Shown in pieces: positions 21,858-25,044 of a stretch of DNA of 64,000 bases. A program made the translations under genes and the position numbers. The first letter of the stretch is position 1, and each line of letters starts with the position of its first letter. Under the pieces are notes generated by a model that was given only the letters and a program-made list of their open reading frames with translations, made no database searches and was not told the origin of the DNA. The stretch spans positions 1 to 64,000 of the forward strand of contig JASJBE010000001.1 in NCBI GenBank assembly GCA_030066655.1, written 5' to 3'. This DNA comes from Woeseiaceae bacterium. Its GTDB lineage: Bacteria > Pseudomonadota > Gammaproteobacteria > Steroidobacterales > Woeseiaceae.

Positions 21858-23510
21858 ATGAAAGCATCCGACCTGCTCGTTAAGTGCCTGGAAGAAGAAG
21901 GCATCGAATACATCTTCGGCGTGCCGGGGGAAGAAAACGCCGACTTCATGATGTCGCTGGAGAAATCGGACAAGATCCAGTTCATCCTGACCCGTCACGA
22001 ACAGGGCGCGGCGTTCATGGCGGAAATCTACGGACGCCTGACCGGCAACCCGGCCGGTGCACTGGCCACGCTCGGGCCGGGGGCTACCAACCTGATCACC
22101 GGCGTCGCGGACTCGAATATGGACCGCGCGCCGATGCTGGTGCTGACCGGCCAGGGCGCAACCGACCGCCTGCACAAGGAGTCACACCAGATCATGGACG
22201 TCGTTGGCATGTTCAAGCCGGTCACCAAGTGGGCGACGACGATCCTGAACGCCGAGACCATTCCGGAGATCGTCCGCAAGGCCGTCCGGCTGGCGCGCAC
22301 GGAGAAGCCGGGCGCCGTGCACATCGAGCTGCCGGAGGACATCGCCAAGCACGACACGACCGTCAAGCCACTCGTGCCGAAACGCTTCCGGCGGGCGGTT
22401 CCCGACGACAAGATCGTCGATCGGGCCTTCGAGATGCTGAAGGAGGCAAAGCGCCCCGTCATCATCGCCGGCAACGGCTGTATCCGTCGCCGCGCCAGCA
22501 AGCAGCTGCGACAGCTGTGCGAGAAGACCGGCATCGGCGTCATCTCGACCTTCATGGCCAAGGGCTGCGTCGACATGGACGAAGACCACTGCCTGTACAC
22601 GATCGGGCTCGGCTCGAAGGATCGTGTGTCACTGGCCGTTGACGACGCCGATCTCGTTATCACGCTGGGCTTCGACATGGTCGAGTACCACCCACACCTG
22701 TGGAACCCGAAAGGCGACAAGAAGGTCCTGCACGCGGACTTCCTGCCCGCGGAGATCGACCAGTACTACCACCCGGAAACGGAACTCGTCGGCGACCTCG
22801 CGCACACGCTGTGGATGCTGAACGAACGCTTCGATGCGCAAGGCGTGCCGGAGTACGACTTCGGCTTCCAGAAGAAGGTACGAGCCGACATGACCGCCGA
22901 CTTCGAGGAATACAAGGACGACGACACCGACGGCGCGATCCGGCCGCAGAAAGCCCTATGGGACGCGCGCCAGGTCATGGGGCCGGACGACATCCTGCTG
23001 TCCGACGTCGGCGCGCACAAGATGTGGATCGCGAGGCACTACCAGTGCCACGAGCCGAATACCTGCCTGATCCCGAACGGTTTCTGTTCGATGGGCTTCG
23101 CGCTGCCCGGCGCCGTCGCGGCCAGCCTCGTGGACCCGGACAAGAACATCCTCGCGATCTGCGGCGATGCCGGCGTGCTGATGAACGTCCAGGAGATGGA
23201 GACGGCGAAGCGCCTGAACGTCAAGATCACCGTCATGGTCTGGGAGGACAAGGAGTACGGCCTGATCGCATGGAAGCAGGAGAATGAGTTTGGCCGCCAT
23301 ACACCGCTGGCCTTCGACAACCCGGACTGGAACCAACTCGCCGAGGCCTTCGGCTGGAATGGCCACGTCGTTTCGAAGTCGGCGGACCTCGAAGGGGTGT
23401 TGCGAACGGCGCTCGATGAAGACGGACCCAGCCTCGTCGTGATCCCGATCGACTATCGAGAAAACAACCTGCTGACGAAGAAACTCGGAGAAGTCACGTG
23501 CACGATCTGA
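21858..23510 (+). CDS. Acetolactate synthase large subunit-like ThDP enzyme
   Basis: MKASDLLVKCLEEEGIEYIFGVPGEENADFM; LATLGPGATNLITGVADSNMDRAPMLVLTGQ; GDAGVLMN ThDP motif; true start inside longer ORF. Confidence 0.88.
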   Translation: MKASDLLVKCLEEEGIEYIFGVPGEENADFMMSLEKSDKIQFILTRHEQGAAFMAEIYGRLTGNPAGALATLGPGATNLITGVADSNMDRAPMLVLTGQGATDRLHKESHQIMDVVGMFKPVTKWATTILNAETIPEIVRKAVRLARTEKPGAVHIELPEDIAKHDTTVKPLVPKRFRRAVPDDKIVDRAFEMLKEAKRPVIIAGNGCIRRRASKQLRQLCEKTGIGVISTFMAKGCVDMDEDHCLYTIGLGSKDRVSLAVDDADLVITLGFDMVEYHPHLWNPKGDKKVLHADFLPAEIDQYYHPETELVGDLAHTLWMLNERFDAQGVPEYDFGFQKKVRADMTADFEEYKDDDTDGAIRPQKALWDARQVMGPDDILLSDVGAHKMWIARHYQCHEPNTCLIPNGFCSMGFALPGAVAASLVDPDKNILAICGDAGVLMNVQEMETAKRLNVKITVMVWEDKEYGLIAWKQENEFGRHTPLAFDNPDWNQLAEAFGWNGHVVSKSADLEGVLRTALDEDGPSLVVIPIDYRENNLLTKKLGEVTCTI

Positions 23511-23517
23511 TGCTGGA
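23493..23517 (+). repeat. 25-bp direct repeat, upstream copy (ALS stop region)
   Basis: GTCACGTGCACGATCTGATGCTGGA; 23/25 identical to 23609-23633. Confidence 0.9.
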
Positions 23518-23600
23518 TAATGGGGACATTCTGCTTTTCGCCTGTAGCCGGTCAAGCGCTACTGTTCCTACGTCGCGCGAAAAGCAGAATGTCCCCATTA
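23518..23600. repeat. 83-bp palindromic insertion element (MITE/REP-like)
   Basis: TAATGGGGACATTCTGCTTTTCGC (23518-23541) and exact reverse complement GCGAAAAGCAGAATGTCCCCATTA (23577-23600), 35-nt interior. Confidence 0.92.
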
Positions 23601-23608
23601 GCGAGGAG

Positions 23609-23633
23609 GTCACGTGCACGATTTGATGTTGGA
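23609..23633 (+). repeat. 25-bp direct repeat, downstream copy (ALDH start region)
   Basis: GTCACGTGCACGATTTGATGTTGGA. Confidence 0.9.
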
Positions 23634-25044
23634 AAGTAATCGCGAGCCTGTTGGTTCACTGACGGTTACGTCACCCTACGACGGTCGCGATCTCGACACG
23701 ATTGCGACCGCGGGCGCCGAGCATGTCGAAGATGCGCTGACGGCGGCCTACGGCCTGTACCGTGATCGGGGCAGCTGGCTGTCGATACCTGAGCGCGTCG
23801 CGATCCTCGAAAAGACCGCTGAGATCATGAGCGGCCAGGTCGAGGAGCTGACGTTGACCGCTGCCAGCGAAGGCGGCAAGCCCTACGCTGACTCCAAGGT
23901 CGAAGTGCTGCGCGCGATCGACGGGGTCAAACTCTGCATCGAGACGTTACGCGGCCATGCAGGCTCAGTGATCCCGATCGGCACGACGCCGGCGACGATG
24001 GGACGCGTTGCATTCACACAGAAGGAACCGATTGGCGTTGTCGCCGCGGTCAGCGCGTTTAATCACCCGCTGAATCTGATCGTGCACCAGGTTGGTCCAG
24101 CCGTCGCAGCGGGCTGCCCGGTCATCGTCAAGCCCGCCGGCGACACGCCGCTGTCCTGCCTCGCTTTCGTACGCATCCTCCGCGAGGCGGGCCTGCCTGA
24201 CGCCTGGTGCCAGGTGCTTATTTCGGACAGCAATGAGACTGCTTCGAAGTTGGTCACCGACTCACGTATTGGCTTTTTCTCTTTTATTGGAAGCTCAAGG
24301 GTGGGCTGGATGCTGCGCTCGAAGCTCGCACCCGGCGCGCGCTGCGCCCTCGAACACGGCGGCGTCGCACCGCTGATCATCGCCGAACCGTTTGACCGTG
24401 ATGCTGCACTGGCCGCTATCGCCAAGGGCGGCTTCTACCACGCGGGCCAGGTCTGTGTGTCGGTGCAACGCGTCTATGCACCTGCCGCGATTGCAGATGA
24501 CCTTGCGAAGGATCTCGCTGCCGCCGCCGACAAGCTGGTTGTCGGCGCACCGGAAGATCCTGACACGGAAGTGGGTCCGCTGATTCGCACTGCGGAAGTC
24601 GACCGAATCGCCGAGTGGGTCGACGAGGCCGTGGCCAGTGGGGCCACGCTGTTGTCCGGCGGCAAGAAGCTCTCCGATACCTGTTACGCGCCGACGGTAC
24701 TGCTGAATCCGCCCGAGGATTCGAAGGTCAGCCAGCTGGAGATCTTCGGCCCGGTTGTTTGTGTTTACAGTTACGACCAACTCGACGACGCGGTGACCGC
24801 ATCGAATTCGCTACCGGTCTCCTTCCAGTCCGCCGTCTTCTGCGACGACATCGACACAGCGATGGCACTGTACAAGCGACTCGATGCATCGGCCGTCATG
24901 ATCAACGACCACACGGCGTTTCGCGACGACGTCATGCCGTTCGCAGGTTTACGGGAGTCAGGCCACGGTGTCGGTGGCATTCCCTACACGATTGAGGACA
25001 TGCAGATCGACAAGATGGCTGTGATCAAGTCGCGGGGGCTGTAG
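23614..25044 (+). CDS. Aldehyde dehydrogenase family protein
   Basis: GVVAAVSAFNHPLNLIVHQVGPAVAAGCPVIVKPAGDTPLSC; GGFYHAGQVCVSVQRV; EIFGPVVCVY. Confidence 0.9.
   Translation: MHDLMLESNREPVGSLTVTSPYDGRDLDTIATAGAEHVEDALTAAYGLYRDRGSWLSIPERVAILEKTAEIMSGQVEELTLTAASEGGKPYADSKVEVLRAIDGVKLCIETLRGHAGSVIPIGTTPATMGRVAFTQKEPIGVVAAVSAFNHPLNLIVHQVGPAVAAGCPVIVKPAGDTPLSCLAFVRILREAGLPDAWCQVLISDSNETASKLVTDSRIGFFSFIGSSRVGWMLRSKLAPGARCALEHGGVAPLIIAEPFDRDAALAAIAKGGFYHAGQVCVSVQRVYAPAAIADDLAKDLAAAADKLVVGAPEDPDTEVGPLIRTAEVDRIAEWVDEAVASGATLLSGGKKLSDTCYAPTVLLNPPEDSKVSQLEIFGPVVCVYSYDQLDDAVTASNSLPVSFQSAVFCDDIDTAMALYKRLDASAVMINDHTAFRDDVMPFAGLRESGHGVGGIPYTIEDMQIDKMAVIKSRGL

Follow-up and report, generated by a model that had tools for sequence, protein, structure and literature searches.

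In the window (the whole 64,000-nt stretch of Woeseiaceae DNA analysed here), a palindromic element lies between a gene for an acetolactate synthase (ALS) large subunit and a gene for an aldehyde dehydrogenase (ALDH), which overlap in relatives that do not carry the element. Comparison with these relatives shows that a duplication provides complete gene ends on either side of the insertion. Judged by its arms, the element is a member of a transposase-linked hairpin family that resembles the TIRYT and REPIN systems. We consider it likely that a hairpin dimer, mobilised by a transposase, came to lie in the gene overlap, that a one-off duplication spared both genes and that the core of the element was flipped later on. 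The inversion of this core and the absence of cores shared between loci are the most interesting parts of the case.

Structure of the ALS-ALDH junction

The junction is made up of perfect 24-bp inverted arms around a 35-nt core, with 25-bp direct copies flanking them. The features in the window are the following:

21858 to 23510, plus strand: ALS large subunit gene, 550 aa, intact, ending in ...EVTCTI*, with a TGA stop that ends at 23510
23493 to 23517, plus strand: left junction copy, GTCACGTGCACGATCTGATGCTGGA, ALS 3' end plus orphaned former ALDH start (GTG at 23498)
23498 to 23626, plus strand: small open frame, 42 codons long, that begins at the orphaned ALDH start, crosses the element and ends in the duplicated ALS tail (TCTI*)
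23518 to 23541, plus strand: left arm, TAATGGGGACATTCTGCTTTTCGC, containing the 17-nt family arm GGGGACATTCTGCTTTT at 23522-23538
23542 to 23576, no strand: core, 35 nt, unique to the ALS-ALDH locus
23577 to 23600, minus strand: right arm, perfect reverse complement of the left arm (24/24)
23601 to 23608, plus strand: GCGAGGAG, Shine-Dalgarno of the separated ALDH gene
23609 to 23633, plus strand: right junction copy, GTCACGTGCACGATTTGATGTTGGA, present ALDH start (GTG at 23614)
23614 to 25044, plus strand: ALDH gene, 476 aa, intact

The ALS product matches profile NF006187 with 724.8 bits (cut-off 509), and the profile models closest to ALDH score below their cut-offs. A sequence-only reading of this DNA had described the perfect inverted repeat with its core and the flanking 25-bp repeat with two mismatches, and both descriptions hold, coordinates included. 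It had also stated that the upstream copy retains an ALDH-type start, which as a statement about the sequence is correct. The two substitutions that distinguish GTCACGTGCACGATTTGATGTTGGA from GTCACGTGCACGATCTGATGCTGGA are both in the ALDH-side copy of the window and both change CTG to TTG, which is synonymous in ALDH. The octamer GCGAGGAG, earlier read as supplying a Shine-Dalgarno, is indeed present, and this reading can be refined: the octamer probably goes back to the 5' portion of the ALS tail that was duplicated and has since diverged (GGAGAAG to GAGGAGG).

Neither arm occurs again within the 64,000-nt window, nor did an occurrence arise in 100 shuffles. As DNA, the 83-nt strand folds far better than its shuffled versions (z = -9.1), and the RNA fold of the junction transcript is strong as well (z = -6.2). 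A search of five genomes for the core, with up to three mismatches allowed, turned up no other site and hence no donor copy. The 42-codon frame overlaps the present ALDH start and might maintain translational coupling; it is not conserved in the sister species described below, where it ends earlier.

Empty sites in related genomes

More than 12 element-free relatives possess a single copy of the junction and no palindrome. In relatives from the genus that have both genes, the 3' end of ALS passes directly into ALDH, as in ATCACGTGCACGATCTGATGCTCGAGAGC of genome G021, and the named GTDB records L120, L122 and L127 have the same single-copy layout with a slightly variable overlap sequence. The GTGCACGATCTGA overlap without palindrome that had been predicted for relatives was found in this way, and the suggestion that ALS and ALDH ancestrally overlapped is borne out. 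Searching the 73 genus genomes for the junction yielded a match of some kind in 35. Two junction copies around an element were present in the source genome and its sister only, and two copies without an element in none of the genus genomes with a junction match. Because the element-free relatives have a single-copy ALS-ALDH overlap, the junction duplication is derived.

The same junction in a sister species

Among the relatives found, the closest is Woeseiaceae MAG MO_167.B29 (JASJCQ010000003.1, here G088), whose ALDH protein is 96% identical and which carries an element at the same ALS-ALDH junction. Once reverse-complemented, the core of this element is identical to that of the window. By BLAST, the 83-bp block is 100% identical between both species in opposite orientation, with both genes in the same orientation, and the flanking coding DNA shows about 3-20 differences per 100 bases. 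This comparison, a single one since the ALS-ALDH element is known in one sister genome, shows an inversion of the core between the sisters. G088 is a metagenome assembly and the source genome, with 167 contigs, looks like one, so in principle the orientation of a core between perfect repeats could be a choice made by the assembler. This is possible but less likely, because a typical read is longer than the 83 bp of the element. The inversion probably goes back to hairpin strand-switching or to recombination of one perfect inverted arm with the other. We liken it to the small hairpin-loop inversions of chloroplast DNA, reviewed in PMC12371153, in which non-coding segments of 4-50 bp flip and hairpins are credited. 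Here too a short segment flips in non-coding DNA; unlike the chloroplast cases, it belongs to a bacterial transposase-linked element with 24-bp arms, and it is seen in one comparison only. A second candidate for an inverted core (G034 compared to G092) was rejected, as it reflected contig orientation, with the flanks reversed too. Elsewhere, synteny between L053 (G000:C5) and L199 (G088:C12) breaks at or beside the elements C5:3820 and C5:6901, which points to either element-mediated rearrangement or misassembly at repeats.

The duplication is longer in G088. Its flanking direct repeat, TGACGAAGAAACTC...GATGCT-TAAACTAAT aligned with TGTCGACAAAACTC...GATGCTGGAAAGTAAT, covers 52 columns when aligned at its best. 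The upstream limit is uncertain owing to a 13-bp tandem repeat beside the element, and the block ends at the left edge of the element, an end that is itself uncertain in the left copy in that TAAT is also near the family's own terminal consensus. To account for window and sister alike, the duplication must have covered at least 37 bp (AAACTC to CTGGA). The 25 bp of the window plus GCGAGGAG are, on this alignment, a remnant left by small deletions and substitutions, and the length of 25 bp proposed earlier is not the original one.

A dispersed family of hairpins

About 17 loci in the source genome and, across the genus, at least 65 carry a hairpin of this family. The arm core GGGGACATTCTGCTTTT has 41 copies in the source genome at up to two mismatches, of which 36 are exact, mostly as inverted pairs, and the reversed pattern used as control has no match there. 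It is present in 14 of the 73 genus genomes. For further comparison we used 67 distinct paired elements, namely the ALS-ALDH locus in two species and 65 others. In the family unit a variable core lies between two copies of (A)AATGGGGACATTCTGCTTTT in inverted orientation, with an outer consensus (A)AAT beyond the arm. Elements are usually located within about 12 bases of a stop codon, often between convergent genes; gene positions were taken from a simple greedy ORF caller whose 'inside ORF' calls are unreliable. A literature search with the arm sequence gave no relevant match.

Between 4 and about 97 nt long, the inner segments of the 67 elements show no relation from one locus to the next. 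Leaving aside matches due to extra or nested arm copies, core similarity is confined to orthologous loci (ALS-ALDH in the sisters, the transposase-flanking dimer, C105:11269, and G034 with G092), and no core is shared by two non-orthologous loci. Orthologous cores are well conserved despite being unrelated between loci. That the core could be resident host DNA to which arms were added on both sides found no support, as the core is absent both from the empty ALS-ALDH sites of the relatives and from the sister's unoccupied site at C112. Several other orthologous sites in G088 are too diverged for exact insertion footprints.

In 12 of the 67 elements the stem extends inward by at least 5 locus-specific bp, far above the one-in-four expectation, some of these extensions stemming from nested arms. 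L219, L207, L227, L225, L201:10416 and others have such locus-specific extensions inside the fixed arms, up to 15 bp long, and some cores at stem-extended loci look like ordinary terminator hairpins. Local tandem duplication has generated extra arms in 9 of the 67 elements, two of them specific to one sister species, which makes hairpin-provoked re-copying plausible in this family. Tandem duplication of an arm with adjacent DNA was observed in L055 3269 (C105:11269), L199 13278 (G088:C12:17278) and L004 2683 (C142:24070), the first two each in one sister species only.

Flanking duplications across the family

In DDE insertion sequences and MITEs, target-site duplications are short, of fixed length and present at most copies. 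The ALS-ALDH element resembles these in having direct repeats around an inverted-repeat element, and differs in that the duplication is at least 37 bp long and found at this locus only. When the 80-bp flanks on either side of an element were compared and their best direct repeat was scored, the ALS-ALDH locus reached local scores of 30 (G088) and 22 (window), compared to a maximum of 14 for shuffled pairs. The other 65 elements scored at most 10, and 0 of 65 exceeded chance. The duplication is therefore no target-site signature. The sequence-only reading had itself named copies without flanking duplications as evidence against its view, and all 65 others are such copies. What stands of its proposal that insertion duplicated the overlap is that a derived duplication accompanies the insertion; what does not stand is that a short element made a long target duplication. 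The idea that the element regularly makes duplications of 25-52 bp on insertion draws on the derived nature of the ALS-ALDH duplication and on its close fit around the element, up to the left edge in the sister, but it has to face the lack of any such repeat in the other elements and the reports that known IS200/IS605-type Y1 transposases generate no larger target duplications (PMC2817692). We consider it highly improbable, and on the 67-element survey we reject it as a property of the family.

A linked Y1 transposase

A gene for a Y1 (HUH) tyrosine transposase of 219 aa (G000:C105:18016-18672) has the arm on both sides, upstream and downstream. Its product matches PF01797 with 48.6 bits (cut-off 23) and the REP-associated tyrosine transposase model NF047646 with 78.1 bits, just under the cut-off of 80, and its translation contains NHFH and YVERNP, corresponding to the HUH motif and a class 2-type catalytic tyrosine (Y---NP). 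At all seven loci of close homologues in the genus (L312-L318, from G000, G088, G029, G024, G027, G084 and G023), repeats of the GGGGACATTC type adjoin the gene. The 3' half of the repeat differs by homologue (TGCTTTT, TGGTTTT, TTAATTT, CTGATTT) and GGGGACATTC is constant, a pattern that suggests co-evolving recognition between arm 3' half and transposase. A close homologue is present in 6 of the 14 arm-bearing genomes compared to 1 of the 59 others (Fisher p = 1e-4). This demonstrates an association of transposase and arm, and the family is most likely mobilised in trans by the C105-type Y1 transposase. A second, more distant Y1 transposase is encoded at G000:C142:8397-8858 (33% identical).

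Comparison with TIRtrons and REPINs

The TIR elements of TIRYT transposases ('TIRtrons') were described by Di Nocera et al. (2013, PMC3733652), and TIRYT is probably the TnpA-Y1 subclass 2.1 of Quentin et al. (2018, PMC6006769). Like TIRtrons, the Woeseiaceae family has long inverted repeats without a GTAG head that flank a Y1 tyrosine transposase gene and is dispersed in the genome as dimers and clusters. Its GGGG-type motif GGGGACAT agrees with the TIRtron consensus GGGGWSAS at 7 of 8 positions and departs from it at one. No such family in Woeseiaceae was found in the literature consulted. With the REPINs of the RAYT system (Bertels and Rainey 2011, PMC3116915) it has in common inverted doublets, some 16-17 conserved bases, a variable spacer, an extragenic position and hairpin formation. 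REPINs are served by a transposase supplied in trans, and we infer a similar working principle here. In contrast to REPINs, however, the arm GGGGACATTCTGCTTTT bears no head of the GTAG, GGAG or GT(A/G)G type and does not form a palindrome by itself. The cores of different loci have no similarity at all, where those of REPINs are just less conserved, and copies number tens rather than hundreds.

Origin of the junction

In the account that we favour, one dimer would have come to sit where ALS and ALDH overlapped in the common ancestor of the source species and its sister, accompanied by a direct duplication no shorter than 37 bp. As comparison with element-free relatives shows, this duplication left the whole ALS 3' end in front of the element and, behind it, an entire ALDH ribosome-binding site, start and N-terminus. 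It would have been retained by selection, as insertion alone would presumably have damaged ALDH translation. Afterwards, as the two sisters show, the core was inverted relative to its flanks in one lineage, and the flanking remnants eroded. The duplication itself would be a one-off, due either to a prior tandem duplication of the overlap or to a strand-switch during insertion or repair.

These two courses carry equal weight for us. A tandem duplication of about 50 bp of the ALS-ALDH overlap may have come first and served as a dispensable spacer, the element inserting later between the copies. This quite possible course, which falls somewhat short of being probable, accounts for a duplication at one locus only with both genes intact throughout, and short local tandem duplications are common around the elements of the family, but it requires the element to land on or close to the point where the copies meet, one among a few dozen positions that would be tolerated, and no element-free two-copy genome was found among the genus genomes with a junction match. 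A single event is just as possible, in which, once the hairpin had been copied, a strand-switch during single-stranded DNA insertion or fork repair led to about 50 nt of upstream DNA being copied again. The duplicated block of the sister fits this course in that it abuts the element on the left and begins close to its right end, and hairpins of the family are associated with local re-duplication; the right boundary, however, is ambiguous due to the 13-bp tandem repeat, and the microhomology at the join is just one or two bases.

Other explanations dispense with the mobile dimer or give it another role. As an invertible regulatory switch, inversion of the core would turn a weak promoter toward or away from ALDH. 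The core is inverted at 83/83 identity against a flanking difference of roughly 10%, and a promoter-like pair (TTGACC-16-CAGAAT) on the minus strand spans core and arm and would face ALDH in the sister. Since this pair is weak (9/12), we give the switch little weight; moreover, its second hexamer is within the arm common to every element, no recombinase was identified, and orthologous cores are unflipped at the transposase-flanking dimer, C105:11269, C126:8978 and in the G034/G092 pair. It thus seems very unlikely. We hold it to be barely credible that the hairpin is a non-mobile intrinsic terminator or mRNA-stabilising structure that formed in place: the strong RNA fold and the position of most elements a few bases past stop codons, often between convergent genes, would suit this explanation, but a need for structure alone is insufficient to account for a 17-nt arm that stays constant across species and unrelated loci and agrees with the transposase-flanking repeats. 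A regulatory effect of the element may exist as a by-product.

How new copies arise bears on the transposase-mobilised dimer as well. Simple copy-and-paste of the whole unit would not predict the pattern of the cores, which no two non-orthologous loci share and of which the ALS-ALDH one is nowhere else in five genomes. It could be that arms spread without cores, each dimer being built on site by insertion and hairpin strand-switching, which can also duplicate neighbouring DNA, extend the stem by locus-specific bases and flip the core. This broader proposal we regard as rather unlikely. If true, the ALS-ALDH junction would be a recorded event of this kind, one that duplicated a gene overlap and separated two overlapping genes. 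With many empty sites and an occupied sister, the locus offers a before-and-after case of a short mobile hairpin being accommodated in a gene overlap with both genes unbroken, and as such a test bed for repeats linked to Y1 transposases, both for how new copies gain unrelated cores and for whether hairpin strand-switching causes nearby duplications and inversions.
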